Assembly: GCA_963575745.1 (NCBI GenBank) | Contig: CAUYUJ010015726.1 | Location: forward strand, 1,121,839 to 1,185,838 | DNA length: 64,000 bases | Direction: 5' to 3' | From: Prorocentrum cordatum | Lineage: Eukaryota; Sar; Dinophyceae; Prorocentrales; Prorocentraceae | Shown: positions 12,967-37,029 of the stretch, piece after piece | Position numbering within the stretch: position 1 is the first letter of the stretch | How the letters are laid out: each line of letters starts with the position of its first letter | The notes under the pieces: model-generated | Seen by the model: the letters and a program-made list of their open reading frames with translations, nothing else | Database searches by the model: none | Told to the model about the DNA's origin: nothing | Made by a program: the position numbers and the translations under genes

Positions 12967-13306
12967 AGTCTTTCCTCTGAGAATCGGGGTAAGATGGCAA
13001 AGGAATTAGGGTATCGTGTTCACTATGCTCAATGGTAGAGGGTACGGGATGAGTCATCGATAAGACAAGTAACCGGTAAGCAAATGTACTCTATCAGGAA
13101 TAGTAAGTGAGGAGGCCGGCCGGCCGACGACACGAGTACGACGAGGGGACGACCCCTCGGCGCGCGCGTGCGAGCCGCTCCTTTTATCTCCTGTATGCTC
13201 ACGCGTAGCTTGAGTACAACACAGCTGCAGATAGTCACACAGTGCGCAGCAAAGCAAGTGATGTGAAAAGCAGCATGAATATGAGGCGGAGAGGAGCATA
13301 TTTACT
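12967..13306 (-). repeat. 3' LTR of the giant copia element
   Basis: 340 bp, matching 35940-36286 with about 16 substitutions and two small indels (2 and 5 nt) counted by eye, roughly 95 percent identity. Read on the minus strand it begins AGTAAATATGC and ends AAAGACT, so its termini form a short AGT...ACT inverted pair rather than TG...CA. A G6 run (13312-13307 on the minus strand) precedes it and could be the polypurine tract. It retains the start of the gag frame (ATG at 13057), as expected for a copy of an LTR that contains the gag start. Confidence 0.93.
13181..13190 (-). promoter_or_regulatory. TATA-like box in the 3' LTR
   Basis: Minus strand GAGATAAAAG, identical in the 5' LTR at 36161-36170, about 130 nt upstream of the gag ATG. 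It is a candidate core-promoter element. Dinoflagellate promoters are poorly defined, so this is position-based inference. Confidence 0.3.
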
Positions 13307-14818
13307 CCCCCCGCGGCGGGCCTCGTTAGGCCCATCCGGCCACAGCACCCCTGGCCTATATATGTACAACCACCGGAGCGAACCACAAAAACTTTTACCG
13401 CTCAACGGTGGCCACCAGGGGGCTAAGGGCCGAAGAGGCCCGACGACTCCCAGCATCAGATAAATAAATTCTCTCCGCCGATTCGGCTTCGCCGATCGGC
13501 AGAGCTGCTTTGCTCGTCCGACACGACTTCGTCGCGCGGAGAGAACTCTCTTGCATGCGCCTGCAGCGACTAAATCACGCGGGCCGGACTCAATCCAGGT
13601 CCTCGAACGGGCCGTCGGTGGCGTCGGAGGCCTCGGGTTCGATGGCGCCGAGCCTCCAGTCCGTCCCTCGCCGCCACGAGGCGAGCGGGACCTCCCTTTG
13701 CCACGGCCAGCGTAGCACGCTGTTATGTAGTGCTTGTCTTTGTTCTTTGTCGCCTCCCCCTTCTGCGGGAAGCGATACTCATGTTCAGCCAGAGACAGGA
13801 CGTGCCACAGCTGCGACCACCAGACGTCGTTGGACAGCCACCAGATCCGATCCCTATGGACGTACATCCGACCTGCACGTCGTTTGCGTAGCGCGGGTAG
13901 GAGACGAGCGGGTCGTAGCCAGCAGCGCCGCGGCCGACATCCATGGCTCCATCGCGCGCGCTGGGGCCTCGACCAATCCCGTGTGTCAGAGTACCACGAG
14001 TATTCCTCTCTTGCCGACACGGCTGTGCCGGTGGCAGAGCATGGGGATTCGGCAACTTCGTCGCCAACCCGAGCGTCTGAGACGTCGGGTCTGCGCGGCG
14101 GAGGTGGCAGTTGCGGTCTCGCTTTCGCCGCATCCTGTGGTCGTCTCGGCCCCACCGAACCAGCTGGGCTGTCGTGGGGCCCATTGGCACTTCCGCTCTC
14201 ACGAACATTCTGCTCTCTATCGCGAATGAACTTCAGCAAATTCATAGCAGCTGTAGCTATTGGAATGCCAAATTCACCGCATGCAGTACGGGGCGGGCCT
14301 GCGTCCTTATCTTGGAGCTCCGTGTTGGGATCTACGTACCTGTTATGAAACCAATAAATGGCCCCCTGTAGCAGCGAGCCCTGGCGACGAATGTCGGTTC
14401 GCACCTGTCTACCTAAATTACGGGCCCACTCTTCTATGAGGTCGTCCGTCTGAACCGCAGCGCGGATGCGACAGTCGATGGGATCTGCATCCCTCCTTCG
14501 CTTATAATTGACATCATCTGTGCTCCCTCCCGCGGCACGAATTGTTCGCCCCGGGTAATCAACAAAATGCCCATCTGAGATAAAGGAGCTCGTGATCTCG
14601 CGAACGATGGCAACCGCTCTAATAATGCGAAGACCAAGTTGAATTTGTTGTACAGGGGCCATCCAGTTCCCTTCAACTATATTCCTCACGATAGGTGGGA
14701 CTTCGTGTTCTGTTTCCCCTGGCAGTCGAAACCTGCTGGGATCATTGGTATTTGAGCGAACACTTGTGTATTCAATGACATATTGTGCCGTTATTACTCT
14801 AGCCTCAATCCCATGCAA
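13235..14818 (-). CDS. Cargo ORF I, last open frame before the 3' LTR, unknown
   Basis: 527 codons. The N-terminal half has ordinary composition with helical stretches (V-Q-Q-I-Q-L-G-L-R-I-I-R-A-V and E-F-G-I-P-I-A-T-A-A-M-N-L-L). After about residue 210 it turns Pro/Arg/Ser-rich and low in complexity, and it runs into the LTR. The true product may end earlier after a frameshift. Hairpins with TTC loops at 13483-13495 and 13524-13534 lie inside it. I recognise no family. As the last cargo frame it could encode a structural or adaptor protein, but nothing shows this. Confidence 0.4.
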   Translation of the reverse strand: MHGIEARVITAQYVIEYTSVRSNTNDPSRFRLPGETEHEVPPIVRNIVEGNWMAPVQQIQLGLRIIRAVAIVREITSSFISDGHFVDYPGRTIRAAGGSTDDVNYKRRRDADPIDCRIRAAVQTDDLIEEWARNLGRQVRTDIRRQGSLLQGAIYWFHNRYVDPNTELQDKDAGPPRTACGEFGIPIATAAMNLLKFIRDREQNVRESGSANGPHDSPAGSVGPRRPQDAAKARPQLPPPPRRPDVSDARVGDEVAESPCSATGTAVSAREEYSWYSDTRDWSRPQRARWSHGCRPRRCWLRPARLLPALRKRRAGRMYVHRDRIWWLSNDVWWSQLWHVLSLAEHEYRFPQKGEATKNKDKHYITACYAGRGKGRSRSPRGGEGRTGGSAPSNPRPPTPPTARSRTWIESGPRDLVAAGACKRVLSARRSRVGRAKQLCRSAKPNRRREFIYLMLGVVGPLRPLAPWWPPLSGKSFCGSLRWLYIYRPGVLWPDGPNEARRGGSKYAPLRLIFMLLFTSLALLRTV

Positions 14819-14860
14819 AGGTATGTTTATTGAACTGTCCTCGCAATGCTTATATGAATA

Positions 14861-15453
14861 TCAGTCGGGCTGATCAAGGTTGATCGTCCCTTCAGTTATC
14901 AGCGTGGCCTTAGGCCTGCTGAGGGCTGCGAAGTCAAGTGCGACTTGCAAGTCTGCGTCTGCCGTCGCGGCTTCGCCGGAGGCAGGTTGCAGCGTCGGTG
15001 CTATGAGACGATGGTCGCGACACTGATTTGTTCGCCTAGTGATGGAGCGAGAGTCACGACTCGGTCTCGCCTCCAGGCTGTTTTCCTGGGCAACCGGTAG
15101 ACGTCCGCGAGGGCTTTGCCCTGCGGCGTCTGCGGCATCGTCCTGCGGCACAGGCATCCACGGTGTTCCCATGGCTACCGCATTGGCTATTGTTTGAAGT
15201 GTCGGACGAAAGTGTTTTGCCTGGTCATCGTGAGCTGCCATCTCTCCCAACCGTTTATCGGTTCGCGGAGGTCGTCTCGCTGATCTGGCCAGTCGAAGGC
15301 TGCCAGAGCTGGGCAAGACATTGGGCGCGCATACTGGTCAATATCTGTATTCCAAAAGATGGTCCACCATGTCTGAATTGGAGGAACTTGGGTCCTCGCT
15401 CTCGAAGCCGAGAATGCGAGCCATTCAATGAACCTCCGTTTCAAGGGCTCCAA
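14861..15453 (-). CDS. Cargo ORF fragments, unknown
   Basis: Two overlapping minus frames (15187-15453 and 14861-15316) read as one protein broken by a frameshift near 15200-15300. The upstream part is aromatic-rich (I-Q-T-W-W-T-I-F-W-N-T-D), and the downstream part has P-T-L-Q-T-I-A-N-A-V-A-M-G-T-P-W-M. The composition is credible for a real protein, but I cannot assign a family. It probably continues the frame at 15536-16198. Confidence 0.35.
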
Positions 15454-15535: not shown

Positions 15536-16198
15536 CTATTCCCAAAGATCTGACCAGCAGCGGCCATCCGCGTGAATGCCCCATCTGCCCACTTGCGCTC
15601 CTGCTGATGGTTGCTGCTGATATTTCTTATCACAATCGCAGAGGCTCTCTTGTCTTCTCGTACGCGTACCGATCCATTCAGCACGCGTAGTGGGAAGATT
15701 ATCAGAGTAGTTCACATGTAACTCAAGTCCATTTGCAGCAAGGGGTGTCGGGATGATCTGTCTGTCCCACGTCTGGGCCATATAGTCGTGAGTGACTCTA
15801 TGTTTGCATTTGATCCGACAGTTGCAACATGGACAGTGTCCAAAGCCCGCGCGCACCCAGTGAAATTGGCAGCACAAAAACCGACCGTCGTCCGTCCAAC
15901 GAACAGACAGAACACGTTCTTGCGCCTCGGGCGACAACTGGGGCCTGTGATTTGGGACCAACGATAGCGTCTCATCAGTGTGAATCCAAGCGATCACTGA
16001 TTCATTGTCGAAAGTCACTTCGTACGAGGCCCATTCATGGTTGAAAACAACGGACCATAACATCTGCTGTGTTCCAATATCCGCCGGGCTTCCAACTCTA
16101 ACAAGAGTGACGGCGTTGTCAATATCAGTGAACCTCGGCACCTCTCGAGACACGAGGGTCCCGTCTGGGCAAATTATATACGAGAAGCGAGTGAGCAC
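15536..16198 (-). CDS. Cargo ORF H with Cys-rich zinc-binding-like cluster
   Basis: 220 codons of ordinary composition. Residues 50-110 are rich in Trp, Val and acidic residues (S-V-V-F-N-H-E-W, A-W-I-H-T-D-E). A compact cluster at about residues 122-137 (H-C-P-C-C-N-C-R-I-K-C-K-H, then H at 137) looks like a metal-binding site. It sits directly after the Tpt1-like ORF and may be the C-terminal part of the same cargo polyprotein. Function unknown; nucleic-acid binding is only a guess from the Cys/His cluster. Confidence 0.45.
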   Translation of the reverse strand: MLTRFSYIICPDGTLVSREVPRFTDIDNAVTLVRVGSPADIGTQQMLWSVVFNHEWASYEVTFDNESVIAWIHTDETLSLVPNHRPQLSPEAQERVLSVRWTDDGRFLCCQFHWVRAGFGHCPCCNCRIKCKHRVTHDYMAQTWDRQIIPTPLAANGLELHVNYSDNLPTTRAEWIGTRTRRQESLCDCDKKYQQQPSAGAQVGRWGIHADGRCWSDLWE

Positions 16199-16219
16199 TC
16201 GGCCTGCGAAAAAGAAGAA

Positions 16220-17200
16220 TTAGTGGCCAGGAATCTCTATGGTTGGGGAGCTTTTCCCATAGATGGACTGTGTCTTCTGCGGGCCATGTCCCAGCCGTTG
16301 GCGGCTCTCCTTCTTGCGCGTTATGGCCCATAGACACAACATGCCTTGGATGGGGGGGGCCTCCCCATGCCTCCGCTGGCTGAGCCACGGAGGGATACGC
16401 GTTGCATCGGGCATTGTTGGGCTCCTCTTGGTCGGAAGCAGCCTTAGCAGTTCGTAGTCTGCTTCAAGGCAAAGCCCTGAATCTTTCTTCGGAAAGCGTA
16501 CCCTTCCATCCGTCGATTCCAGGAACGTCTGCATGTCTGTGACATGGAGAAGGGACCCGTGACTCCTGGCTTGGCCAGGGTCATATGGGACGCACATTCT
16601 TTCAACTGAAGCAACAAAAGTGGAATGTCCCTGGCATGCGCGATAGAAGACAGGTCTGGCAACTGCTCTCCTCACTTGTATCTGCGAGGGGCACGCCTTG
16701 TAATTCTGCCACATGTCGTAAATGCTCGTTCCACTGATGTTTTCATTATCTTCAGGGATTACTCCCAAAACTTCCACTGTCTCTGGCCGCAACGCGGCTA
16801 AGCCGTGTGCTGCGAGAACATATGACTGGTAACTGAATCCGTCCTCAGCAATCTTCTGCACTAGGTCCCCGAAATAGACCCAGCCACCCGATGATCTCGC
16901 ATAGTCCGAGCAATGCCTCGCGAGATATGCCGCGCACTTACCTATGTGCTCAGCAAGCTTGTCAACTCGGCAGTTCAGGGGTCTCCAAAGCTCCATACTG
17001 CCTAAGGCAGCTGGATGGTTGCGATCATCAGCCCCAACAACCAACGGTTTCAGACACTTGAAGGACTTCGGAATGAACCCCTGGGACATCATCGGAATAA
17101 AACTCGGCTCGGAGAAACTCCTTTGCTTGGTTGAATGTGCCGTCATCTTGGTCGAGGTTGCCCAGCAACGCGAAGATCGGGTCTTCAGCAAATTCTGCAA
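16220..17200 (-). CDS. Cargo ORF G, RNA 2'-phosphotransferase (Tpt1/KptA)-like domain
   Basis: Residues about 80-240 follow the Tpt1/KptA layout. A helix ends in Y-L-A-R-H (residues 92-96; Tpt1 enzymes have LLRH here, with catalytic Arg and His). Next comes G-W-V-Y-F-G-D-L-V (106-114; family G-Y-V-x-x-D-x-L-L), then R-A-C-Q-G-H-S (187-193; family R-A-N-Q-G-H-S with a catalytic Arg), then L-L-H-V-T-D (217-222; family L-Y-H-G-T). Tpt1 removes a splice-junction 2'-phosphate from RNA using NAD+. The HGT to HVT change could weaken NAD+ binding. The length of about 160 residues fits the domain. A frameshift near 17050-17150 separates it from ORF F. Assignment rests on motifs only. Confidence 0.55.
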   Translation of the reverse strand: MQNLLKTRSSRCWATSTKMTAHSTKQRSFSEPSFIPMMSQGFIPKSFKCLKPLVVGADDRNHPAALGSMELWRPLNCRVDKLAEHIGKCAAYLARHCSDYARSSGGWVYFGDLVQKIAEDGFSYQSYVLAAHGLAALRPETVEVLGVIPEDNENISGTSIYDMWQNYKACPSQIQVRRAVARPVFYRACQGHSTFVASVERMCVPYDPGQARSHGSLLHVTDMQTFLESTDGRVRFPKKDSGLCLEADYELLRLLPTKRSPTMPDATRIPPWLSQRRHGEAPPIQGMLCLWAITRKKESRQRLGHGPQKTQSIYGKSSPTIEIPGH

Positions 17201-17975
17201 TATACCTAAGCGTATTACCCGTATGATTGCGCATGGCTTCAGTATGCGGCGGAACGGGGCCAGTCATGTGGGCTTCGCGAACTTTCTGTCTCATTGCAGC
17301 AGGCGTGCGCTGAATGATCTGTCCGCGTTTTACATTTGGAACGTAAAGCTGTCTGCCTCTAAACGAGACAGCATGCCCAACAGTAATCTCCTGATCCCCT
17401 TCCTGGGGATGCACAGGCGTGGGCTGGCGCCGTCTTCTATCAGGAGCGGGTGGCAGACTCACTCTGCGAAAGAAGTTCTCAGATGCTGGGCCTGAACGGT
17501 AATGTTCTTCCATGGTAACTGCGAATTCAGGATCCGCATCGTATGGAAAAGCTTTAACATCCGCAGGATCAGCGCCTGCTTCCAAGGACCCCGGGGTGCC
17601 TGCGCCATCCGGGTTCTGTTCTGCAGAGGGAATTTCTGCTGCCTGACTTCCGCTCGGAGCGGCTGCTGGTGCTGGTGCCTTGGCAGCAGGTGCAGTTTCT
17701 TCATCCGACGGCACAACCGTGGGGGAAGACTGCTCTCGAGGTGCCTCAGGATGTGCAGCATGAGCACCCAAGTCCACCATCATCTCATCATTATTCCTTT
17801 GCTCCTGCTCCGCTCCGGCTGGGCCAGGCGGAGGAGGCGGAAGGTTCTCTGTCACGGCGGACGGATGTGCAGGAGGAGTTGGAAGTCTACTTCCACTCGC
17901 AACAGATTCGCCCTTGGCACGAGGCTTATGCCCCTCACCCATTTCAAGTATCATAGGAGTACGGACGAAATTCAA
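17028..17975 (-). CDS. Cargo ORF F, disordered linker plus short conserved-looking region
   Basis: The first 150 residues are Pro/Ala/Glu-rich and probably disordered. Residues about 195-290 are ordered in character (V-S-F-R-G-R-Q-L-Y-V-P-N-V-K-R-G-Q-I and E-D-P-I-F-A-L-L-G-N-L-D). The frame ends where ORF G takes over in another frame, so F and G were probably one polypeptide before a frameshift. No family recognised. Confidence 0.4.
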   Translation of the reverse strand: MNFVRTPMILEMGEGHKPRAKGESVASGSRLPTPPAHPSAVTENLPPPPPGPAGAEQEQRNNDEMMVDLGAHAAHPEAPREQSSPTVVPSDEETAPAAKAPAPAAAPSGSQAAEIPSAEQNPDGAGTPGSLEAGADPADVKAFPYDADPEFAVTMEEHYRSGPASENFFRRVSLPPAPDRRRRQPTPVHPQEGDQEITVGHAVSFRGRQLYVPNVKRGQIIQRTPAAMRQKVREAHMTGPVPPHTEAMRNHTGNTLRYIAEFAEDPIFALLGNLDQDDGTFNQAKEFLRAEFYSDDVPGVHSEVLQVSETVGCWG

Positions 17976-18126
17976 TTTGGATCCGCTTTAAGGATCCGCT
18001 CAACAACAGCGTCCGCAAATTTCAGCCATGTACTTGAATAGTTTTCCGGGTCATGTCTGTCTGTTACTTTGTACCTCATGTAAACGCATCTTTCGCAGCT
18101 TCGATATATTCTGCAGCCTCTATTCT

Positions 18127-19902
18127 CTATTCTTCAAGATCGTCCGGTTCTTGCGACCAAGTTGCTCTAGGATCGCGCCATATGTGGAAGAAATCTTTTT
18201 CATTTCTCAGTACTTTGCGTGCTCTCGGACGCGAGAACCGCAGCGTGGAGATTTCTTTGAGAATCATGGGAATAGTGGTTATCTCATCAGATCCCACTAG
18301 CGTCGGCGAATCCTCAGACGAAATGTCCCCATCTGGCTGCGCCGGAGGGGTTGCCTTAGGGATGCCTGATTTGTCGTCGCCTCCGCGTCGGGCAGGAACC
18401 GCATCCTCGGCGGACGTCGCTTTTTCCCCGGCCGCCTTTGCACCTTCAACAGGGCTCTTCGCCTTAACGGATTGGTCCCCCGCAGCGCTGCCTATGGCAT
18501 GCTGTGGGGCCCCCTGGTCTCTCACCCATGCAGGTGGGGCCTTGGCCGGAGGCTCTGCCTTCTGGCGACTTGGATCCGCTGGGGAAGGACTAACAATATT
18601 TGGCCTGGTGAGTTGAGTCAAAAGAACCGGGGGGTCACGAAGACTCGGTTTCCAGGCTTCAGACTGACCGCTAGTCGCGTCCTTGCCTCCCGGCTCTGCA
18701 GGCGGCTGCGTCAATGAAGATGCCGCAGGGTTCTCGTCTCCCCTATCAATGCGAGGCACCTTCGCCGGCGGGGGATTCATCGAATACGCTTCTGGACTAA
18801 ATTGTGGCGGAGGCGGGGCCTTCTTAGGCGCCGTCTGCCTCGCCTGCGGCACGCCTTCAAGCGATGCGGTGTTCGGCTTCGTAGCCGGCGGCGGTGCCAT
18901 ATCGTTACATAAAGTGGCGGCGGAGCCTTCTTCGAAGCTTCCTCTTTCGGCGCTTCCGCGGGCAACCCCTCCTTTGGAAGGGGGAGGGGGCATCGGTACT
19001 TTCGTAGTTGCGTCGGCCTTAGGATTCGATGTCCGAGCCTCTGCCCGCGGGGGCGGAGGCTTGAACGCCCTCTCAGTGCTTGATGCAGCCTGCCCTAAAG
19101 CCGGGAAGTTCTCGGCCTCAACCGAAAATTGAGTGCCGGACGGCTGGGCCGCCGGCACTTCTGGTTTTGCCTCCGCCGTTGTCTTCAATGTATTTGTTTC
19201 TTCTGTATTCTTTTCAACAAGCTTCACAGATCCCTCCGAGGCCTCGTCTTTGTGCAATGGATGAATCTTGGTTAGCCTGACTCCCGTCTGTTGGAGCCAT
19301 GGCCACATGTCATCGAAGGTCTCGTTGTCGAAGGATGGACTCATTCCCTTTTGCCAGTCAGTTGGTTCTAAATTTGGAATCCACTCTATCTGTGCCTCCC
19401 GGACTTTATCCGTGGCATCTGTCCGATCGTTATCTCGGTATCTTTCGACCTCGGAATCCTGCTCCAGATTCCAACCTTTCTGTCTGGCAACGTTTTGTAA
19501 ATGCACATAGGCTGGCGTAACATGAAGCGCTGCCGGAGTCCAATGGTATAGTCTAAGTTCGTGCAATACGTCTCCGACTGGATCGCTCACATATTGTGGC
19601 GGCCTTCCTTTGATGACTGTTGGGTCTTTCGCGAAGAAAACAATCTCCGCAGTAATCCATATACCGTCTCCAAAGGTCTCCTCTGCAACGGGATGCGTCG
19701 TGTGCGTATTAGGGTTATCCACACATGGAAAGGAGCACACCCCAACCTTGTGCGCCTTGACGTTACCTCCGTATTTGGGGTCAGAAGGATGCAATTGGTG
19801 GGCCTCCAATATTGCATGAAGGGCAGTCACAGACGTGCCATGAGACTGTTTAGACCAGCCTGTGAATTGGTCTTGGACCTCCGCAAGGGCAATGAGAGCT
19901 CA
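18127..19902 (-). CDS. Cargo ORF E, HGT-motif (ADP-ribosyl-transfer-like) N-terminus and long disordered tail
   Basis: The first ATG is at 19830, but the frame is open upstream to about 19902 and contains S-H-G-T-S-V-T-A-L-H-A-I-L-E-A-H (HGT codons at 19842-19834), so I extend it. H-G-T followed by a helix and a short loop is the NAD+-binding signature shared by Tpt1 and other ADP-ribosyltransferase-fold proteins. About 200 ordered residues follow (G-I-W-I-T-A-E-I-V-F-F-A-K-D), then about 370 residues of Pro/Ala/Lys-rich, presumably disordered sequence with repeated A-x-P-P motifs. The preceding ORF D runs into it in another frame, which suggests a frameshifted fusion. Substrate unknown. Confidence 0.45.
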
Positions 19903-21470
19903 ACACAATGGCCGATGCCCGCTCTATGGGTCCTCGCCGACAACTTGGCCCAATTCAGACGATCAGCAACAGTGGCTGCTGGGTCTGCTCTTGACCGGTC
20001 GGCCTTGATCCTAAAGAAGCGTGCCCAGTTCGGAATCACGTAATTTGGTTCCAGAGGTGGGGTTCTCGTTGACATCTGTAACAACTGAAAAGCCAACCAT
20101 GCCTCCCCTTGCGCGGTTCTCAGAACCGTCTTGTACTGTGGGCTATGAGGCGGAACATTCCCTTTTGCAACCTCTGCAGCACGGCCTTCTTCGCCTGGAT
20201 AAGCGTTCCCAGGCATCATGCCCCGATGGAGATTGCCGCTCTTGACCGTAAACGGTTGAAGAAAATCATGGTCGGCAATATCTGGCCCTGTCGCACTTTT
20301 ATATGGCAATTTCTTCATCTTTTGATATGGCAAATCATAGGGCCAATCAAGTTCCCTTTCTCCGGGTCTACCTTCTTTCGGACGCTGCGGGAACTTGTGA
20401 CCGCCGCTGAGCTTGGTTAACTTTCCCACGGGGCATTTATTGCGAAGATACTCCTCCGCTGCTTCACCAGGCGTTTGAGCTTCTTGAAAGCCCGTAGGCG
20501 GCGCCAAAGGGGGACTGCGGGGCGACTGAGCCGTCCGCATACTGGAATCACTGCCCGAGGCGGCTGAGCCACCGGGCGCAGCGACTCCACTGGAAGCGGC
20601 TGCGCCGCTCAGTGGCGCGGCGTGAACCGAGACGGCTATGCCGCCCGAGGCCGATCCACTCACTGAAACGGCTAAGCCGCTCGGTGCCTTGGCCGGCGCT
20701 GCCTTTTGCAGCTCGTTCAGTACCGTGCGCATACGTTCATCATTTTGCACACCTTCGTCCTCCGATCGTAGGCGTTGCCCCTTCGGCGGCATTCCCGGAC
20801 AGAAAATTTCCCCGCGCGGCAAGAAGTAATTGTCATCTTTCCAAGGGAAAAAGTCTTCATATGCCATTCCCTGCTTAAGAAAGTCAATAGAAGCCGCTGA
20901 GTAATATGAGTGGATAGCTCCACCTCCAGATGCATCTAAGATGGCTGGAAACTCTTCGCTACTCAAAGCTGTTCTAAATCGACGGGCGTTGAGCAAAGAC
21001 ACGGGTATGTTGCCTACTGAGGGGGCCCAATTCTGCCAGCGCATGACTAGCTCATTGATGGTCGCCTCCTGCTGGGCATACCCGTCAGCTCTTGTCGCCC
21101 TTGGTACGTTGCCACTCCGTGCGGCTGAGCCGCCGGAGGGCTGGCAGAAAAATAACACGGCCAGTTTAGCGGTCTTGGTCATGTTCTCTGCACATAACTG
21201 ACCCGCATTCGCGTTCACTATTTGCCCTCCTTTGTTCATTTTATACTCTTGGTGGGTTGAAGCAAAGTGAAAGATGTCTCCTGAGCGGTGCCGAAGCTGT
21301 CGGTAAAGGCTCACTCCGTCTAGGATCTTTATTCTTGGGAAAAGCCTTATGGCTTGGTAGTGTTCGATCCGACGGTTCATTCTGGCCCTAACAAGAGTGG
21401 CAGCATCATCCCACATCGGGTTTACGCCAACTCCATCCGTCTGCCAGCATTCGTCGCCCCCCACCAACAT
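19827..21470 (-). CDS. Cargo ORF D, possible SGNH-hydrolase-like domain
   Basis: Just upstream (21590-21470) another frame reads P-L-V-F-A-G-S-L-R-I-L-V-E-A-A and I-M-Y-V-G-G. It connects to this ORF (G-D-E-C-W) if one base is lost from the G6 run near 21463. G-S-L, then G-G-x-D-E-C-W, then G-D-I-F-H-F (about residue 65-70) are spaced like blocks I, III and V of SGNH/GDSL hydrolases, though the block III Asn is not evident. The rest has T-A-K-L-A-V-L-F-F-C-Q-P and G-G-G-A-I-H-S-Y-Y-S segments and a Ser/Ala-rich linker. It could be a different Rossmann-like fold. Confidence 0.35.
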   Translation of the reverse strand: MLVGGDECWQTDGVGVNPMWDDAATLVRARMNRRIEHYQAIRLFPRIKILDGVSLYRQLRHRSGDIFHFASTHQEYKMNKGGQIVNANAGQLCAENMTKTAKLAVLFFCQPSGGSAARSGNVPRATRADGYAQQEATINELVMRWQNWAPSVGNIPVSLLNARRFRTALSSEEFPAILDASGGGAIHSYYSAASIDFLKQGMAYEDFFPWKDDNYFLPRGEIFCPGMPPKGQRLRSEDEGVQNDERMRTVLNELQKAAPAKAPSGLAVSVSGSASGGIAVSVHAAPLSGAAASSGVAAPGGSAASGSDSSMRTAQSPRSPPLAPPTGFQEAQTPGEAAEEYLRNKCPVGKLTKLSGGHKFPQRPKEGRPGERELDWPYDLPYQKMKKLPYKSATGPDIADHDFLQPFTVKSGNLHRGMMPGNAYPGEEGRAAEVAKGNVPPHSPQYKTVLRTAQGEAWLAFQLLQMSTRTPPLEPNYVIPNWARFFRIKADRSRADPAATVADRLNWAKLSARTHRAGIGHCVELSLPLRRSKTNSQAGLNSLMARL

Positions 21471-21625
21471 ACATGATCTCTATCGCTCCGTCGGTAGCAC
21501 GGCTCATCGCGTCATCCACCAGCTCAACCGCTGCCTCTACTAATATTCTGAGGCTCCCTGCGAAAACTAATGGATTTCCTGTCGTTTTGGCCCAGTGCCG
21601 ACTCCGATCATTTCACTGGTGTCAT

Positions 21626-23113: not shown

Positions 23114-23347
23114 TCAAAACGGCATGTTGCCTTTCGTTCGAACGTTGTCCAGTGCACTATCCACGGATCCTGCGAGACCTGAGAATACAGACGTTGGAAA
23201 ACCGTCTGCGATGTTGCGTCCAGGTCAGCCTTCAGCGCGGTCACGACTTGGTCGTTCCGCATGTACAATACGTCATGCCTCCACATTGTGAACCGCCAAC
23301 TCCATCCTCGCTTGTGTCCAACCTTGACGGTCCCGGTGTGATCCAAT

Positions 23348-26147: not shown

Positions 26148-26150
26148 GTC

Positions 26151-26699: not shown

Positions 26700-26790
26700 T
26701 CAACCCACTGTGTAGAGAGTCTATGCTCACATCCCAGATATCTTCCAACCGCAGTCGGAGGGTCGATTTCCTTCCCCTCGGGACAGTTTT

Positions 26791-27305: not shown

Positions 27306-27438
27306 TGGTAACTCTGAATTCTTTTTAACAAGGATCGCAAATAGCCGGCCAAAGTGCGCCGTCTGTCCGTTGAGTTCGGCGATAACGTCAGAGTACTCTC
27401 TGACGCCATCCTCTTTCCATGTGCCAATGTCACGCAGT

Positions 27439-28089: not shown

Positions 28090-28149
28090 ATCCAGGCCAA
28101 TATCACGCAGGAGGCCAAGACAAGGACCAGGATCTTCTATACCGAAAAA

Positions 28150-30144
28150 TCATATCTTTTCTGCCTTGTATTGTTCTACGGCCTGTCGGCGTTGGGCTTG
28201 GTTCATGTTGAACCATCGCCCAGGATGCACCCCAGGATTGGTGGATTCGGGTAGCTTTTTCAGCCATTGGGCACCGTATTTCGGATCTGGGTTAGTGACC
28301 CACACGCGAGTTATAGGCACGTAGTCTGGATCATAATAAAGAAAAATTCGAATGCTACATGTCTTTCTTCGACCTGTCAATGGAAGCTTCTGCGTTAACT
28401 CTTCTTTTGTCAGACCGGCAACAATGCGCCTATCTTCGAAGTATTCCATCGCATCCAAGTTTTGAGTTGTTCGAGCTAGAAGTTGGCCTTTCCCGGGGAC
28501 CTTCTCACGCGGCTTCGCCGCTGAGAAGTTCGATTGCCTATCCAAACGGTACTCCAGTTGTGCGAGTCCCAATTTCTGGTTCTTATCTGCTGGATGGGAA
28601 TCTCGCCGTGGATCCCTGCCGTCAACTACCATAGGCGCGTCGTCCACGCATGACCCACCAGGGCCTTCGTCCTCTAATTCGGCCTCCGAGTCGAAGTGCG
28701 GGGCGCCCTCGCCTCCTTGGGAAGGCGGTGGCATGACAACAGCAGGATCATCTGCATTAAGCAAATTGTCCGATCGTATCCCTGTTGCTGTCTGTGGTCC
28801 GTCTGAGACGGCCGCAGCTTCTCCCGCTGGAGGGATCGTAACGGAACGTGCTTCGGTCACTGCCTTCTCGCATGCTTTTCTCCATGGAAACTGGGGAGAG
28901 TGATCTTCAGCAGTGCCATCTAAGATGTTGCTGTATACCTGGTCAGACTTCTCAATGGTGGGTCGCTTGCCCTCTTGAGTACGCCCTGATTCCATGTTAA
29001 GTCCATCCAGCTGTCTCAACGGCACAACAAAACTATCTGGTCCAACCAATCCCCCGGCTTTGTGCACACACCCCAAGTATATTCCCGGAATCATCGTTGC
29101 GCCAGTCTTGGCGGTCCGAAATCTGGACTCAGGCGGAGGCACATAGCGCACTAGAGACCCGAAGGGCAGGAGCGGAGCCTCAAATCTACATCCGAAGCGT
29201 CGCTCCCAACTTGACTGTCCCTCCTCAGGGGTCCTTGTATTGTAGCAAAGGCAGAAGTATCGGACGGCGTAAGTCCAATGTGGTGGTGGAAGACCGGCCT
29301 GCATGAGCAAGGCTCTAGTCCCCATCTGTACCACGCCATTTGCATGTTCAGCAACGGCGTTTCGTTTCTTGTTTCCTGGGATGGTAGGATCATGCGCAAT
29401 CTTGAGCTCGTAACATGCCCTTGCAAGCTCACGCGCACCATCTGTATAACAGTATTCTAACTTCTCCTCCGGGGCCTTAAGGTTTACTAAAAAACTGCAA
29501 ACGTGAACCGCAGACTTGTCGTGTACACCCTGAGCGGCGAGGAAATCCGTTGCTCGGTCGCGAAAAGTCACGCACGCGGTCTCATCGTGGAGCCCCCGCG
29601 AGAGTTCATCCATCGCAAACCAATGGTCCATCGTCGTCAGGTGTCCAAGCGAAGTGGGGTTAGCGTATGGGCGGGGAACCTTCAGCCCTTTATGTTGCGC
29701 TTTGCGCTGCTGCTTTCTGATAGCTTTGGCCCAATTGCACACTGGGCAAAATGGTTTCTTGGGAGTATGAGTTAGAAAGTGCGGCAGGGAGGCCGCGGCC
29801 TCTTTGAGCCGCTCGGCAAGGGATTCCGACACCTCAACCTCCGCATCGTCTGGGTCCATCTCTGGCGGTGCGTCGACGTTGACTAAGTCAACGCCGTCAG
29901 CGTCTCCAGCTTCACCCTCCTCGGGCCCGGGGGCCGCGTCGCACGCGCTGGAATCCAACCCTCGATCCATGTCATAGGGAAGGTATCCTGAGACCCCGTG
30001 CCAGTGAGGGCTCTTATATGCGGCTGCGCAGGCCTCGGCTTTGCCGGGCTGCTCGTCGTTCTGTCCAACGGCTTGACCGTGGCAGGGCAAAATAAGGAGA
30101 CTCTTAGAGGCAGCAATGCCGGTCCGGTCGGCGTCCGATTCCAA
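28150..30144 (-). CDS. Copia integrase
   Basis: 664-codon frame, the longest intact gene of the element. A zinc-binding N-terminus is visible (H-F-L-T-H then C-P-V-C). The catalytic core has the first Asp in T-T-M-D-H-W-F-A-M-D, the second in Y-C-Y-T-D-G-A-R-E-L, and the Glu in N-A-V-A-E-H-A-N-G-V-V-Q. It is followed by the copia-typical L-L-M-Q-A-G-L-P-P-P-H-W and R-Y-V-P-P-P region. After about residue 400 the protein is disordered, then ends in an ordered segment with D-P-D-Y-V-P-I-T-R-V-W-V. It inserts cDNA into the genome; the 5-bp target duplication fits. A 12-bp-stem hairpin (28501-28528) lies inside it. Confidence 0.92.
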   Translation of the reverse strand: MESDADRTGIAASKSLLILPCHGQAVGQNDEQPGKAEACAAAYKSPHWHGVSGYLPYDMDRGLDSSACDAAPGPEEGEAGDADGVDLVNVDAPPEMDPDDAEVEVSESLAERLKEAAASLPHFLTHTPKKPFCPVCNWAKAIRKQQRKAQHKGLKVPRPYANPTSLGHLTTMDHWFAMDELSRGLHDETACVTFRDRATDFLAAQGVHDKSAVHVCSFLVNLKAPEEKLEYCYTDGARELARACYELKIAHDPTIPGNKKRNAVAEHANGVVQMGTRALLMQAGLPPPHWTYAVRYFCLCYNTRTPEEGQSSWERRFGCRFEAPLLPFGSLVRYVPPPESRFRTAKTGATMIPGIYLGCVHKAGGLVGPDSFVVPLRQLDGLNMESGRTQEGKRPTIEKSDQVYSNILDGTAEDHSPQFPWRKACEKAVTEARSVTIPPAGEAAAVSDGPQTATGIRSDNLLNADDPAVVMPPPSQGGEGAPHFDSEAELEDEGPGGSCVDDAPMVVDGRDPRRDSHPADKNQKLGLAQLEYRLDRQSNFSAAKPREKVPGKGQLLARTTQNLDAMEYFEDRRIVAGLTKEELTQKLPLTGRRKTCSIRIFLYYDPDYVPITRVWVTNPDPKYGAQWLKKLPESTNPGVHPGRWFNMNQAQRRQAVEQYKAEKI

Positions 30145-31362
30145 CCGCTGTCGCTAGCCTTTTGAGGCGAATAGTAGAAATAAGTGATAGTATCCGCAGA
30201 GATCTCAGTCGGCCGTCCGTCAACGTAGCTGTGGGTACCAATCAACTCATGTGCATGCAGGTCTACGGTTACGCGAGTCTGGACAGCATGGGGCGGAGGG
30301 CCCCCCGCAGATTCCACATTGCCCAGGAATGCCTTGGCGCCTGGCGTCACGCAACACCACCGCTCGGGAGGCTCACCCTCCCCAGCGGCGACCGCGCACA
30401 TCCACTGACCCAGTGCCTCTTTGCCTGAAAGAGTCAAGTATGGTATCTTACCCTCCACGATCAGGTCCACTCTTTGACCGTTGGGCAACAATGGGTAGGG
30501 AGGGTCTTCGGCCTGCTGGCCAGAGGAAGCTAAAGCCGTGATCCATGCACCGCTCTCCTACTGAAACCACGCGCGGAGTCTCCGGCATGACCAGAGCATT
30601 AAAACTACCACCCTCGAATTTAGGGCACGCGATGCGAACTGAGCCGAGGGCCTTTGACTCTCCCCCAGCAGTATTCAGAGCGATCGATTGCGGAAGTTTT
30701 CGAACAAATCTCATTGCACCTGCACTTCTGATGTAGCTCTCCCCTATGAGGTTATACCCACACCCTGTATCTATAATAAAGCTCAGCGCTCCAAGATACG
30801 CAGCATCCTTGTCTGTGCATCCCGCAGCGGCTGTGCCGAGTGGGCCCTCGCCCCCCTCCTCGGTCCTCAACCAGAGGTGCCAAACTTCACATTGCAGGTC
30901 TGACGCCCTGATCAAGGCCTCCGCAGCAGACGCCCTCGACAGAGTAGACATCTGTCGGCGCATCTCTCCTGGGAACTCCCACCTGTCTTTGGCACTCGAG
31001 GGCAACTCTTTCAAGTCGTGGCGACGCGCCTTCCTCCAAGGGATGGCGGGCCCCTCAGTAGAAGGGTGAAATCGGACGCGGGGCGTGCTCCGACCCTTCA
31101 TCTGAGATCGGATGCAACTCTTACTAGTGGGGGCGCTCCAGTACTTCTTGCTGGCGCCCCGAGAAAGAGGATGCAATAAATTCGCAAGGACATGGACAAG
31201 ACTCTCGACCTGCTCCCTGCATTCGTGGTGAAATTCTCCACCGGAGGGATTCCCGTAGACTCCTCCGTTGGTATCTCTAGAGGCCTTCAACAATTTAGGG
31301 CTGGCTTGTTTCTGCCCGGGGAAGCCCCGAATCAACGGGGCGGGGCGCGCGATGGCACCCAA
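29883..31362 (-). CDS. Retropepsin-like aspartic protease (frameshifted)
   Basis: 30448-31362 (304 codons) contains L-S-F-I-I-D-T-G-C-G-Y-N-L-I at about residue 193-206, the D-T-G active site of retropepsins, followed by hydrophobic strands. The next frame, 29883-30491, continues with P-Y-L-T-L-S-G-K-E-A-L-G and leads into integrase. The protease would cut the Gag-Pol precursor as a homodimer. It lies between the CCCH nucleocapsid region and integrase, the standard place. The frame break near 30450-30490 is within the domain's C-terminal part. Confidence 0.85.
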
Positions 31363-31528
31363 GCTGACTTGGTCAGTGGATCTCTCCCGGCCCCCCCCGC
31401 TTCCGGCTCAACCGACGCGGACTTCGCCGCGTCCGCCGAGCAAGGAAGACTAGAAAGAGCATCCTTATCAAAATTATATCAGTCAGTCCTCCTGCACTGG
31501 CGGCTGAGCCGCCAGTGCGGAGCCAATG

Positions 31529-32371
31529 TCACGGATGACCAGGTGTGGTCTGGGCAAACCAACAATCCTTGCCACGCGAACATTTGTTTGTGCCCCTGTA
31601 AGAAAGACATATCATGTCTTTGCCTTTGCCTTTTCCTGTATTATTGTCTCCGTCTTTCTTACGTCTGTCGGAGTTATTGCTGGAGGCTCTCGAGCCACCA
31701 TTGCCCGCCGACGACGAGACATTAGCAGCCGCGGCATTGGCTTGTTGAACAGATCGCTCGTACCCCAGGGATTGCCCCGAATCAAGCTTCGCTTGTTCGT
31801 ACTTGTCGCGTTTACGCTTCTCAGCATCAGTCAATCCTCTATGCTCTTTCTAGCAACCATCCTCTGGTCCGCGACAGTTCTTGGGGTCTCGCGAGTAAGC
31901 GTAACATGGTAGCTTGCTCTCTTTTCCACGCGATCGATTGGATTGACTCCGATTTCTCTGCTGCGCTCCCTTCCCTCGTCCCCCCGTAGGGGTCTGTGAA
32001 CGGTTCTGCCCCTTTCGGCCTCGGCCTTCGGGCTTGCCAGATCTCCCTCTGGGGGTCTTGTTTTGGGCTGGAGCAGCATTAGACTTAGTTCCCGCAGCCG
32101 ACTGGGCCGGCGCGGCAGCCTTGGGCTTCTTATGGTTAATAGGGCAACCCTGGCCTGCGTACGGGCAGGCCTGGCCCTTACGTACATATTTGCACGTTGT
32201 CTCGCCCTTAGTCAATCCGCTCTTCATGACATCTGTGGATTTACCTAATCGAGCTGTTACCTCTGCCGGGGCGGCTTTAACGCTGGCATTTCGGTGATTG
32301 CCATTGTTGTTGTTCCCACCTCCGCCCAATCGGGCCTGCCGAGCACGTTGATTCAGAGTGCTCTCATGCAC
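31529..32371 (-). CDS. Gag nucleocapsid with CCCH zinc fingers and an in-frame UAG
   Basis: Basic Gly/Arg/Lys-rich protein with three CCCH-type fingers: C-K-Y-V-R-K-G-Q-A-C then C-P-I-N-H (C-x8-C-x6-C-x3-H); C-Y-A-Y-S-R-D-P-K-N-C then C-stop-K-E-H (C-x9-C-x6-C-x3-H); and C-L-S-Y-R-G-T-N-K-C then C and H. The UAG at 31852-31850 falls inside the second finger, and the same frame continues from a TTG at 31834. Gag proteins usually carry CCHC knuckles; CCCH fingers are an alternative RNA-binding module. The stop is either decay or a readthrough site. Confidence 0.75.
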
Positions 32372-33658
32372 GTTGATGTTCCATTTTCCTTATCGCGCAA
32401 CATCAACGATTCAATTTCACTCATAAGCCACTCATAGGATTTCACTCCTGTTCCGAATCTATATTTGGACATGTCATAAATCTGACCAAAGAATGATACT
32501 TTCTTAGGCTTCCTACACTGCTCAACGAAGTGTGCATGAATCGAGGCTCGCATTTCGTCAGAAGGAGGTCGAACCCCATATTTGCTGGTAAACATCTGTC
32601 CGCTCGTTGTAGAAATGGTACAAGTCAGCATCAGGGTGATTAGGGTCTATAACTACTTTGAATATATCACGCGAGATGCGATGCTGACCCAGCTCCGATC
32701 GAACAGAGCACCAATGGCAAATGGCTCGAACCATTTTGCGCCCCGTTAAGAGTCTCTCTTCAGCCTGGGCGCCAAACTCCATCCGACTGATCTGTTGAGA
32801 GAAGTGGATGTGATGATGCGATAACTTGTGATTCCTTCGCATTTTGCTGAATTTCTCCATCAGATGTGTGGCCATCATGAGTTCAAGACGTTGGAAACGA
32901 CCAGCATTTCTTAGCTGCTGGTCTTCCACAGCTGGGTTCATAGCTTCCAAAATCCAATGCTGTGCTAGCTGAACTTCTGGGGAAGATCCAGCAATGGCGC
33001 GAACTGCATGCATTTGCCACTCCCGTATGTTTGTAACAGCGGGAATGTCCATCAGATCGACCTTTTGGTTGTTTCCAACTTGCCTCCATGGACCCAGAGG
33101 GGTACTCTCATCTAGACCTCCCGGATCATTTGGCCCTTCTGGGCCAGGAGGGCCACCGCCACCGCCTCCACCGCCTGGGGATCCAGATCCCCCCGGACTC
33201 CCGGGCGGCGGCTTGTCTGGCGGATCGCGAAAAGCATCATTTAGTGCCGATAGAGTGCGATTACTCGACGCGATACTGCTGTCGTCGCCATCCTTATCCT
33301 TCCCCGCCCCGCCCGGCGGCTGCGCCGCTGGCGCATGATCCTTATCGTTGTCTCGCGGCTGGGCCGTTGACGGTCTCACAGGTCCGTCCTTAGAGAACGG
33401 ATGAATGTTAACGCGATTCTTTCCTACGATCTCACCTGTGAGCTTCATCCTGATTGGTATACCATGCTCGGAGGTGCTAGGCTCGGCCGGACCTTCGATT
33501 GCAGGACCGGGGACAATATAATGAGGTTTCATGGCAGGTCTTGTGGGCGTATCGTGTGAGAATAGAGGTAACTCAAACGAACTCGATTTTATGATTTTGC
33601 CCTGTTCTGTTTCCCCATGTGGGAGGGGCTTGGCGATGACAGCTGGAAGCTTCATCAT
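32353..33658 (-). CDS. Gag capsid-like region (frameshifted)
   Basis: 32558-33658 (366 codons) starts with a disordered Pro/Gly-rich part and turns helical from about residue 200 (I-R-E-W-Q-M-H-A-V-R-A-I, V-Q-L-A-Q-H-W-I-L-E-A, R-L-E-L-M-M-A-T-H-L-M-E-K). The next frame, 32353-32631, adds S-I-H-A-H-F-V-E-Q-C and S-Y-E-W-L-M-S-E-I-E-S-L-M. Its position between the 5' end and the nucleocapsid fingers makes it the capsid region. The frameshift is at about 32600. Confidence 0.65.
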
Positions 33659-33730
33659 GTCTTTTCCTGATGCAGCTGCCGGTGCTAGAATATGTTCCTC
33701 AGTTTGCTCCTTCGCCCTCTGCGCACTACA

Positions 33731-34036
33731 TTATTCAAGGAGCTTTTGCTGTAGGGCCCGACAGTCACTGTCGGCACTGTGTTTTCTCCACTGCTCGTCC
33801 CACTTCTCCTGCTCAGCTGGCAAACTCTTTATCTGAGTGCACTTCGAACATCTTTTCGTATTCGTGTCAAAGTGGTGGTTGCAGCCCGGCTTCCCACAAG
33901 TGGCGCAGTTCCCGACTTTCGGGTTCGAACAAACCGAACATTGCACTTCACCCGCCCCTTTCGCGGGTCGCGGCTGAGGTACAGTCCTCACCTTCAGCAT
34001 CGGCGGCATCACGCTTCCCATGGTTATCAACTCCAA
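33731..34036 (-). CDS. Gag zinc-cluster segment
   Basis: About 100 codons with C-S-V-C, C-A-T-C-G-K-P-G-C-N-H-H and C-S-K-C pairs, a multi-CxxC metal-binding region resembling treble-clef or RING-like clusters, followed by a helical tail. It lies between the coiled-coil Gag segment and the capsid region. Confidence 0.5.
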   Translation of the reverse strand: MELITMGSVMPPMLKVRTVPQPRPAKGAGEVQCSVCSNPKVGNCATCGKPGCNHHFDTNTKRCSKCTQIKSLPAEQEKWDEQWRKHSADSDCRALQQKLLE

Positions 34037-34105
34037 TTGTTTTCGCGAGGACGCTACGCCGGACGGTTGGCCGCTGGCAAAGTTCCTCCACTTTCCCCAG
34101 TAGGC

Positions 34106-34879
34106 TTAGCCGATGGGCGCGCGACGTCGGTTAGTTACACTTGTTGGAAGGGATGCTCTAGCATTATCATGCAATCTGAGGTTTTCTCTTTGTTTCTTTA
34201 TCAGATCGACTCTTGTCTCAGCTGCAATTTGTGTATTCGATGCTTCCAGTCTGGCAGTTTTGAGTTGCTCTTGAAGCTCCTGCTTCTCTTGTTCTGCAAT
34301 GGCTGTAGCGATTTTCTCCCCTTCTATTCTAGCCGCCGCAACAGCTGCGGATGCGGTCTTGGCATCAACAGACTGATTAATCGCCGTTGCAACGGCCTGT
34401 CGTTCGGAAGCCATCATCTCGTCATAACGGTTCTTGGCTTCTTCCTCCGCGTGCCGCCTAACGACCGCGGTTTGATGACGCACTTGTTCCACCAACTCCT
34501 GTTCTCGCTCTCTGGCAGCACTCGCCAGGGCAAGTCTTTCAGCCTCGAACGTCTTCCGAACATACTCGACGGTTGCGGTCATTTCTTCTCTCTCAAGTCG
34601 AGCCTTCTCGGCCCTTTGCGCTTCGCGCTGCAGGAACTCCTGCTGAGTCTTAGCTTCGACAAATCTAGCCTGATCCTGCATGGCTCGCACGCGAGGAAAT
34701 GCGCAATTATGCTCACTCATGGGAAAACAATCTACACACAACCACTGATTGCTACAATTGGGACACACATCCGAGCAACTCTTACACACTGAACGTCTGC
34801 GAGCTCCATCTGGCTCGTGGGCTTTCCCGGGCATCTGCTCTCCGCCCGCGGCGCGCAGTCGGGGCTCCAGTTCCAGCAT
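34106..34879 (-). CDS. Gag coiled-coil segment with CxxC cluster
   Basis: 257 codons. Residues about 32-58 have C-K-S-C-S-D-V-C-P-N-C and C-V-D-C-F...H-N-C, a zinc-binding pattern. Residues about 65-240 form a long coiled coil rich in Glu, Ala, Arg and Gln (E-F-L-Q-R-E-A-Q-R-A-E-K-A-R-L). It would be an assembly region of Gag. The preceding frame (34732-35034) overlaps it, showing a frameshift. Confidence 0.6.
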   Translation of the reverse strand: MLELEPRLRAAGGEQMPGKAHEPDGARRRSVCKSCSDVCPNCSNQWLCVDCFPMSEHNCAFPRVRAMQDQARFVEAKTQQEFLQREAQRAEKARLEREEMTATVEYVRKTFEAERLALASAAREREQELVEQVRHQTAVVRRHAEEEAKNRYDEMMASERQAVATAINQSVDAKTASAAVAAARIEGEKIATAIAEQEKQELQEQLKTARLEASNTQIAAETRVDLIKKQRENLRLHDNARASLPTSVTNRRRAPIG

Positions 34880-35394
34880 GCATCAAGCATGGATATAGCA
34901 CTGTTGCTCCTTGAAGCAGATCGAGCTCCTGATCTTGGTATCTTAGGCCCCCCCCTACTCGAGGCGTTCGATGTGGGACGTGCGCACGTGCTTTCTGGGG
35001 GTTGTGGTACCTCTCGAAGCTCCTCATCCCTCATCCTGTCTTATTAGCTCAGTATACGAAGCTGGTTGTTCAACCATTTCTTCATCCTCAACAACAGCCG
35101 GCATCGAGGGTTGCCAATCGCCTGAGGCGATTGAGTGCAGGAGTCCGTCCTGTGGGCTCTCTATCGTGCTTCGCCTGAGACTGATGCTCGATATCAGCCT
35201 TGACCGCCTGAGGCGTCAGGTCACTTGCATCAACATCTGAACCATCTGGACATGGATCAACATCCATCATCAAGGACAAGTCTCGGCTTAAATAAACTCC
35301 TTTGTTGGCGTATTCAAACTCTTCTTCCAGGGAATTATCTCATGTTCTCTGTCTAGTGGTTCGTCACTATCTTGGCCGAACTGTCTTGTCAATG

Positions 35395-36030
35395 TTATAG
35401 GGATGGAAGAGTCCCTCTCGTGCTTCCCCATCCGTCTGGGACGCTGGGGTGCACGCCTGTGGACTCGCGAGCTTCTCTCGACCCACTGGCTTCACCAGCG
35501 GCCGGCGCGATTGTCTGTGCAGCAATCGGGATAGGACTTATCGTCTCCAAAGACTCGGCGATCAAAGACGAGAATGCTCCTCGTCTAGATCTTGCTGTTC
35601 TGCCGTTCCGTCTATGCGGGTCTGGGGTTCGTTCGCGATCGCGGATCGGAGCTCTAGAGGGAGAATCATCTTCCGACAAGTCTCCGCTACTTCTACCCCG
35701 AGAGACCCGATAGGGGATACTGGAAGGAGGAAGGCGGCCCTGCTCCGGGCCGCTCTCCTGTAGTTCGTGTCCGTCGCGTTGTACAACTTGCTGTTCAGCG
35801 TTTCGCGAAGCGACGGACATTTCATCCGTCTCATCATAGCTCATACCCGTAGCGACTAAGTCGTGGGGTTCGTCAGAAAACCAGTTTCCAGGCTGGTTCA
35901 AACCCGTGTCGACTATGTCGCGGCTTTCGGCTGATAACCGGTCTTTCCTCTGAGAATCGCGGTAAGATGACAAAGGAATTAGGGTCTCGTGTTCACTCTG
36001 CTCAGCGGTAGAGGGTACGGGATGAGACAT
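35395..36030 (-). CDS. Gag N-terminus, starting inside the 5' LTR
   Basis: The ATG at 36030 lies 257 nt into the 5' LTR, and the first 30 codons (M-S-H-P-V-P-S-T-A-E-Q) are LTR-encoded. The 3' LTR keeps the equivalent start (M-T-H-P-V-P-S-T-I-E-H, 13057). Yeast Ty1 also starts Gag in its LTR, so this has a precedent. The protein is polar, Ser/Arg-rich and probably disordered. It stops at 35395; the small frames between 34880 and 35390 are probably its frameshifted continuation. Confidence 0.65.
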   Translation of the reverse strand: MSHPVPSTAEQSEHETLIPLSSYRDSQRKDRLSAESRDIVDTGLNQPGNWFSDEPHDLVATGMSYDETDEMSVASRNAEQQVVQRDGHELQESGPEQGRLPPSSIPYRVSRGRSSGDLSEDDSPSRAPIRDRERTPDPHRRNGRTARSRRGAFSSLIAESLETISPIPIAAQTIAPAAGEASGSREARESTGVHPSVPDGWGSTRGTLPSL

Positions 36031-36286
36031 CGATAAGACAAGTAACCGGTCAGCAAATGTACTCTATATCAGGAAAGGTAAGTGAGGAGGACGGCCGGCC
36101 GACGACACGAGTACGACGAGGGGGCGACCCCTCGGCGCGCGCGTGCGAGCCAGCACGCTCCTTTTATCTCCTGTACGCTCACGCGTAGCTTGAGTGCAAC
36201 ACAGCTGCAGATAGTCACACAGTGCGCAGCAAAGCAAGTGATGTGAAAAGCAGCATGAATATGAGGCGGAGAAGAGCATATTTACT
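35940..36286 (-). repeat. 5' LTR of the giant copia element
   Basis: 347 bp, partner of 12967-13306. It starts AGTAAATATGC next to the target copy. Just past its inner end the minus strand reads CGGTTATCAGCC, a gapped resemblance to a primer-binding site complementary to initiator Met tRNA (TGGTATCAGAGC). I regard this as suggestive only. Confidence 0.93.
36161..36170 (-). promoter_or_regulatory. TATA-like box in the 5' LTR
   Basis: GAGATAAAAG on the minus strand, about 130 nt upstream of the gag ATG and identical in the other LTR. A candidate promoter element by position and sequence. Confidence 0.3.

Positions 36287-36593: not shown

Positions 36594-37029
<436 letters not shown>

Follow-up and report, generated by a model that had tools for sequence, protein, structure and literature searches.

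A Copia-type retrotransposon lineage of about 23 kb in Prorocentrum cordatum with a selected coding cargo behind RNase H

We analysed a stretch of 64,000 nucleotides from the dinoflagellate Prorocentrum cordatum (assembly GCA_963575745.1, contig CAUYUJ010015726.1, positions 1,121,839 to 1,185,838), here called the window, in which a long terminal repeat (LTR) retrotransposon occupies positions 12967 to 36286 and is read from the minus strand. It is probable that this element is an old and decaying copy of a Copia-type lineage of about 23 kb that carries about 11 kb of cargo kept by selection and translated as an extension of Pol.

The element is an LTR retrotransposon, as defined by its paired direct LTRs, target-site duplication, primer binding site, and polypurine tract (Table 1). 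A sequence-only reading of the window had described the LTR pair, the 5-bp TGGCA duplication, the open minus-strand cargo frames inside the same LTRs, and the lack of an inner LTR pair. The two LTRs were recovered by alignment (324 identities, 15 mismatches, and 7 gap columns), the duplication was found on both flanks, large frames occupy the stretch behind RNase H between about 24.8 and 14.2 kb, and no second LTR pair inside the element was reported by a scan for repeats of at least 40 bases. The termini of the LTRs are AGT..ACT, and the TG..CA termini, which are usual for such elements but not universal, are not present; the AGT..ACT termini therefore do not exclude membership among LTR retrotransposons.

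The LTR was used as query against the assembly, which comprises 4.13 Gb in 21,875 contigs; there were 1,319 first-look candidates, and all 40 that were scored matched, including the 2 LTRs of the window. Five contigs besides the window contained LTR pairs separated by 22.3 to 23.1 kb, and 6 copies were thus compared: the window copy, C19666, C21033, C20216, C18509, and C1880. The LTR-LTR mismatch rate was 4.4% in the window copy and 4.6% to 10.2% in the other 5, so all 6 copies are old. An exact 5-bp target duplication flanked the window copy, C19666, C21033, and C20216, while that of C18509 had one mismatch and none was seen for C1880, the 3' LTR of which is truncated. The sequence GG(T/C)(T/C)A(T/C)CAGCC adjoined the 5' LTR in all 6 copies, the base before it being C in the window and T in the other 5, and the polypurine tract GCGGGGGG adjoined the 3' LTR in all but the copy with the truncated LTR. 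It was also noted that contig C3025 contained a same-strand LTR pair 43.5 kb apart (543603-587396), which represents either 2 elements or one with an insertion.

Along the minus strand the motifs follow the order protease (DTG), integrase, reverse transcriptase (RT; YVDD in the window copy), and RNase H, which is that of Ty1/copia elements. The predicted Ty1/copia assignment rests on these motifs, which we take to be those of the 4 domains, and on their order; the frames and motifs agree with the order gag-protease-integrase-RT-RNase H that had been read from the sequence. The RNase H region of copy C1880 matched residues 1-210 of P0005, one of 8 relatives in the databases. The Pfam match of the protease frame to Asp_protease_2 was weak (E 0.036, under its cut-off), and phmmer searches against the PDB gave matches only at E 0.34 or worse for the RT and integrase, as also for modules B and G of the cargo. 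A different, degenerate copia-type RNase H is located on the minus strand at 37232-37741, just outside the 5' LTR; its frame stops about 25 residues past an MLTKPM motif, like the ending of an ordinary copia element.

All 5 of the other LTR-paired copies were collinear with the window over gag, Pol, and the cargo modules, here called B to I, apart from gaps no longer than about 0.75 kb. The same arrangement was observed at C614, a diverged RNase H and methyltransferase locus, where modules B, C, D, and E were found in the same order at 47% to 66% identity over the longer matches (66% for E1, the first part of module E), followed in order by E2, F, G, H, and I at 33% to 63% identity. This locus ended in the same polypurine tract and LTR, with 71% identity in DNA over the last 0.75 kb. 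Four more diverged loci were sampled, and in all 4 (5 of 5 with C614) the methyltransferase was followed by module C; the diverged loci were picked for having both RNase H and the methyltransferase and are informative only on what comes after. Thus, the search for other full copies with the LTR as query returned the same cargo in the same order, and none of the 5 paired copies or the 5 diverged loci sampled ended right after RNase H.

Spacing between modules was examined on contigs common to the match lists, picked by eye, of searches with P0005 (4,853 candidates, of which 71 were scored, with 142 matches listed under RNase H or the methyltransferase), the F-G-H query P0011 (2,478 candidates, 104 scored, 104 matches), and E1 (30,980 candidates, 121 scored, 121 matches), search candidates not being confirmed copies. 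The methyltransferase was located 3.9 to 5.8 kb from E1 in 17 pairs (18 shared contigs) and 6.5 to 7.0 kb from F-G-H in 6 pairs (9 shared contigs). E1 and F-G-H formed 21 pairs within 24 kb (27 shared contigs), of which 18 were spaced by 1.49 to 1.80 kb, 2 by about 20 kb, and one was on the opposite strand. For E1 and the LTR there were 23 pairs (19 shared contigs); in 12, including that of the window, the LTR was 5.5 to 5.9 kb downstream. The remaining pairs involved 5' LTRs (about 17 kb away), the truncated LTR of C1880 (4.8 kb), or LTRs perhaps belonging to neighbours. Distances from E1 to the LTR or to F-G-H that do not fit one element (about 13 to 24 kb) were ascribed to neighbouring elements. 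Because some contigs are apparent duplicates (for example C82/C13704 and C14705/C19331), there are fewer loci than pairs. A search with P0003 against viral contigs found nothing.

Among the 6 copies examined, the cargo is coding and under purifying selection. The variable sites tended to 3-periodicity in the phase of the open frames across gag, Pol, and cargo, often weakly so in single windows of 600 bp. The mean pairwise ratio of nonsynonymous to synonymous substitution rates (dN/dS; 15 pairs of copies, which are not independent) ranged from 0.21 to 0.47 for gag and Pol and from 0.35 to 0.55 for cargo modules B to I, as compared with 0.83 in the 3' noncoding stretch and 0.92 in the LTR (10 pairs each), while the other 2 forward frames of the coding segments gave values of 0.70 to 1.71. 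Among shared substitutions, defined as those present in 2 or more copies and mostly older than the insertions, third codon positions accounted for 243 of 457 in the cargo (53.2%; p = 2e-18) and 172 of 282 in gag-Pol, compared to 8 of the 22 in the 3' noncoding control, whereas the corresponding fraction for singletons in the cargo was 771 of 1,962 (39.3%). The stronger third-position bias of the shared substitutions indicates that the cargo was selected while the family multiplied and that selection was relaxed after insertion.

According to the structure model, module B holds the class I fold of the C5 methyltransferases. The PC of motif IV was kept in all 6 copies. In the alignment, read by eye, this PC was retained in all 8 rows that include it, as was the motif VI Glu in the 8 rows that include that residue; we take both to be catalytic from the known logic of these motifs. 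The retention, in the copies examined, of a coding cargo with such a fold suggests that the elements carry their own DNA-modifying tools. RNase H and the methyltransferase were encoded in one frame in P0001, P0005, and P0007, that is in 3 of the 8 database relatives, and the first cargo module is therefore an old part of the lineage.

Module G resembles Tpt1/KptA proteins, an assignment from profile comparisons that we favour slightly. In hhalign, the module G copies alone gave a probability of 3.4% (E 0.013) to KptA domains from the same genome, and with homologs added the probability to the KptA profile was 52% (E 1.4e-4), in 2 ordered local matches; none of 60 column shuffles reached the score. 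Pfam, including PF01885, gave no match to module G in any of 4 copies, no KptA structure was found among the VIA rows for this module (201 chains aligned, poor model), and a search against plasmids found nothing. Ten homologs of module G were identified (P0010-P0019), with query coverage of 33% to 100%. Nine F-G-H homologs (P0010 and P0012-P0019), up to 80% identical, belong to one EukProt data set, which bears the label Pyramimonas sp. AAC.1, by its name presumably a green alga, and reflect either horizontal transfer or culture contamination. Separately, the Pfam family PTS_2-RNA (Tpt1/KptA) had 154 matches in the genome (150 scored of 2,877 candidates), and most of those listed belonged to one family, with open frames reaching 2,941 and 4,482 amino acids. 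The loci that were read contained R..QGHS..HGT motifs, and they perhaps represent another family of giant mobile elements with a clear KptA domain.

The junctions between the modules point to how the cargo is expressed. Those of methyltransferase-C, C-D, D-E1, E1-E2, F-G, G-H, and H-I were each spanned by 2 or more unbroken frames, some of the bridging rows being one frame seen in 2 overlapping pieces, and the bridging frame of C18509 includes a deletion of about 0.58 kb. The E2-F junction was open in C21033 (a frame of 774 amino acids), 2 other bridging rows being probably low-complexity matches, and the junction between RNase H and the methyltransferase was bridged only in the database relatives. 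The cargo is thus probably a C-terminal extension of the Pol polyprotein rather than a set of separate genes, judging from the open frames. It had been proposed that the lineage acquired a large set of extra genes: the findings support this in that the cargo is kept and collinear, with the refinements that it probably does not consist of separate genes and that its first module belongs to the old stock of the lineage. In the gag frame, a UGA was present in all 6 copies, with an exact downstream hairpin in 5 of them (alignment read by eye); long frames stopped at this codon in C1880 and C19666 and ran past it in C18509 and C20216. The UGA and hairpin are a possible signal for stop-codon readthrough.

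Several observations weigh against the reading of a Copia-type lineage with a translated Pol extension. None of the 6 copies has the whole coding region open. No frame bridging gag to protease, or integrase towards RT, was found in the copies and relatives, and at the integrase/RT boundary, at about 28150 of the window, 4 of the 6 copies have UGA and the other 2 GGA; given these missing bridges and the shared UGA, Pol may be synthesized as two or more products. No match to RVT_2 was obtained from Pfam at E <= 1 for the open RT-RNase H frame of 802 amino acids in C21033. Low dN/dS values (0.30 to 0.60) were also obtained for one antisense frame, including 0.41 in E1 as compared with 0.44 in the true frame, a pattern that arises when third positions coincide, and the assignment of the strand hence rests on the open frames and the homologs. 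The methyltransferase module was not recognized by Pfam, Foldseek found no PDB match to it at E <= 0.001, and R replaces W beside the motif VI Glu in the window copy. Finally, the Tpt1/KptA link of module G is weak, and its structure model is poor (mean predicted local distance difference test score 49).

We do not favour, but take seriously, the alternative that the methyltransferase is dead or a repurposed fold, with a role in DNA or RNA binding or in structure, and that the cargo serves mainly in particle assembly or targeting. The sequence is far from the catalogued DNA methyltransferases (DNMTs), motif I is unusual (EYCCGxxSxIG), and the identity to the listed structural matches is only 9% to 15%; set against this are the retained residues of motifs IV and VI and the purifying selection. 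That the cargo is coding but expressed as one or more separate genes, with their own starts and perhaps subgenomic or spliced messages, appears unlikely. Known elements with additional coding capacity use a separate open reading frame (ORF; PMC5408684, PMC9289625), and no single copy is open throughout, yet RNase H and the methyltransferase share a frame in 3 relatives and most of the cargo junctions are bridged. An endogenized large virus-like element, rather than a usual retrotransposon lineage, is very improbable: in size and in its count of extra modules the element comes close to a small virus, but it has the LTRs, primer binding site, polypurine tract, 5-bp target duplications, and copia-order Pol of a retrotransposon, and no envelope or capsid family was recognized in the frames scanned, most modules being without an assigned family. 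A nested insertion or chance fusion that placed other DNA inside an ordinary copia element and gave a false 23-kb unit, as might be suspected in a repeat-rich genome with another degenerate RNase H just outside the element, is excluded by the collinear copies at other sites, 3 of which are flanked by exact target duplications, and by the ordered modules of C614; no inner LTR pair was reported in the window element by the scan for repeats of at least 40 bases.

For the Copia-type lineage with a Pol extension, we also consider a more specific scenario, which is tentative and on balance doubtful, namely that a C5 DNMT, a Tpt1-like RNA 2'-phosphotransferase, and several unassigned modules are fused in a giant Pol of about 5,000 to 6,000 residues that is packaged in particles and shields the RNA and complementary DNA (cDNA) of the element from host defence. 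On the favoured reading itself, the whole cargo would be translated as a C-terminal extension of Pol, and its modules would enter the particles of the element together with RT and integrase. By precedent of the retrotransposon DNMTs, the target of the methyltransferase might be the cDNA of the element or host chromatin; acting on new cDNA, it would cause this to resemble methylated host DNA or to be otherwise tolerated, and the Tpt1-like module would act on the RNA ends or 2'-phosphates of the element RNA. The element most probably spreads by ordinary copy-and-paste, with tRNA-primed reverse transcription, integration, and a 5-bp target duplication, a route supported by the LTRs, primer binding site, polypurine tract, and target duplications.

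Ordinary Ty1/copia elements are usually 5 to 9 kb in size and end soon after RNase H. The element described here shares with them the order protease-integrase-RT-RNase H and the 5-bp target duplication, but differs in its size of about 23 kb and the cargo behind RNase H.

DNMT-bearing retrotransposons have been described (PMC5890265), namely SymbioLINE-Dnmt and SymbioDIRS-Dnmt3 in Symbiodinium and KnitGypsy-Dnmt3 in Klebsormidium. They belong to the LINE, DIRS, and Gypsy types, and their DNMTs are reported to be able to methylate CG de novo and to be under purifying selection. The same paper states that Copia elements of Symbiodinium lack any DNMT domain. In a 2025 paper (PMC12344493), DNMT3 is said to occur in Copia LTR elements and in DIRS elements, with reference to PMC5890265. 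The present element resembles those of PMC5890265 in having a C5 methyltransferase in a retrotransposon (within Pol in KnitGypsy and SymbioDIRS) under purifying selection, but here the module is located behind the RNase H of a Copia-type Pol, is missed by Pfam, and is followed by about 9 kb more cargo. According to PMC9289625, a giant Ogre/Tat-related Gypsy element of Phalaenopsis is 25.5 kb long, with an AlkB-like 2-ODD domain and an extra ORF of 565 amino acids, its size being largely attributed to LTRs of 6.4 kb; it shares a size class of about 25 kb and an extra nucleic-acid-modifying enzyme with the present Copia element, whose LTRs measure 0.34 kb and whose additional coding sequence amounts to about 11 kb. 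For bdelloid rotifers, PMC5408684 reports LTR retrotransposons with a captured ORF3 beside gag and pol; these are similar in having captured enzymatic ORFs, some common to different element classes, but differ from the chain of several modules seen here. No title or abstract on a Copia-type element with such cargo in dinoflagellates was found in the literature, a search that consisted mostly of titles and abstracts with subscription papers outside it and that leaves the absence unproven.

If a giant Pol is made, the gene content of a retroelement approaches that of viruses. The conserved cargo of about 11 kb makes self-modification of retroelement nucleic acids, as a means of living in a host genome, directly testable, the lineage bears on the origin of the repeat-laden genomes of these algae, and the methyltransferase module points to an enzyme family missed by the domain libraries used.

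Table 1. Positions in the window of the features of the element, from left to right.
Feature	Positions	Strand	Remarks
Left target-site duplication TGGCA	12962..12966	.	
3' LTR	12967..13306	minus	Coding-strand ends AGT...ACT
Polypurine tract CCGCGGGGGG	13307..13316	minus	Adjoins 3' LTR; also in diverged relative C614
3' part without codon signal, probably untranslated	13317..14186	minus	dN/dS 0.83 (670-bp part, 10 pairs); no third-position bias
Module I	14187..14860	minus	dN/dS 0.41; 46% amino acid identity in C614
Module H	15539..16219	minus	dN/dS 0.41; continues from G in P0018
Module G, putatively Tpt1/KptA-like (LARH..GGWVYFGDL ... RxCQGHS ... H.T)	16223..17083	minus	
Module F	17031..17987	minus	dN/dS 0.55; one frame with G in P0014, P0017
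Module E: E1 with HGTSVTALHAIL, then proline/alanine-rich E2	18130..19899	minus	dN/dS 0.44-0.46
Module D	19830..21479	minus	dN/dS 0.49; 54-62% identity in C614
Module C, glycine/proline-rich linker	21629..23493	minus	dN/dS 0.41 over main frame
Module B: predicted C5-cytosine methyltransferase fold, residues ~49-280 (window ~23972-24667), then linker	23351..24811	minus	
RNase H, copia type	25476..25949	minus	
RT region, frame broken in window copy, active site YVDD	26151..28149	minus	
Integrase	28153..30153	minus	Motifs TTMDHWFAMDEL and YTDGAREL; dN/dS 0.33
Aspartic protease (IIDTGC)	30451..31407	minus	dN/dS 0.47
UGA in gag frame and hairpin (9-10 bp) ~11 nt downstream	31494..31531	minus	
gag region, two open frames	32561..34882	minus	dN/dS 0.21 over frame 32561-33730
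Primer binding site similar to TGGTTATCAGCC (C as first base in window copy)	35929..35940	minus	
5' LTR	35941..36286	minus	
Right target-site duplication TGGCA	36287..36291	.	

No NCBIfam family was found at E <= 1 for 7 frames, and the 9 frames scanned against PHROGs gave one family, at 0.74. Searching for homologs with the E frame in full returned nothing, low-complexity words having probably taken the candidates. Three assignments were tried and rejected. A KptA/ADP-ribosyltransferase-like nature of E1, considered for its HGTS motif, was unsupported, with 10 of 60 shuffles scoring at least as high; an SGNH hydrolase at the end of C and start of D, suggested by motifs read by eye, was supported neither by Pfam nor by profile searching of the PDB; and a Pfam match to DotH/IcmK at the same place, the sole match below 0.001 (E 1.9e-4, under the cut-off, in one of 3 rows), was not believed. 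Outside the element, 5 tandem-like units of about 83 bp were observed at 11333-11755 of the window, the later 4 being 66% to 76% identical to the first, and a long TC-rich simple repeat adjoining the element was located at 36810-37049.

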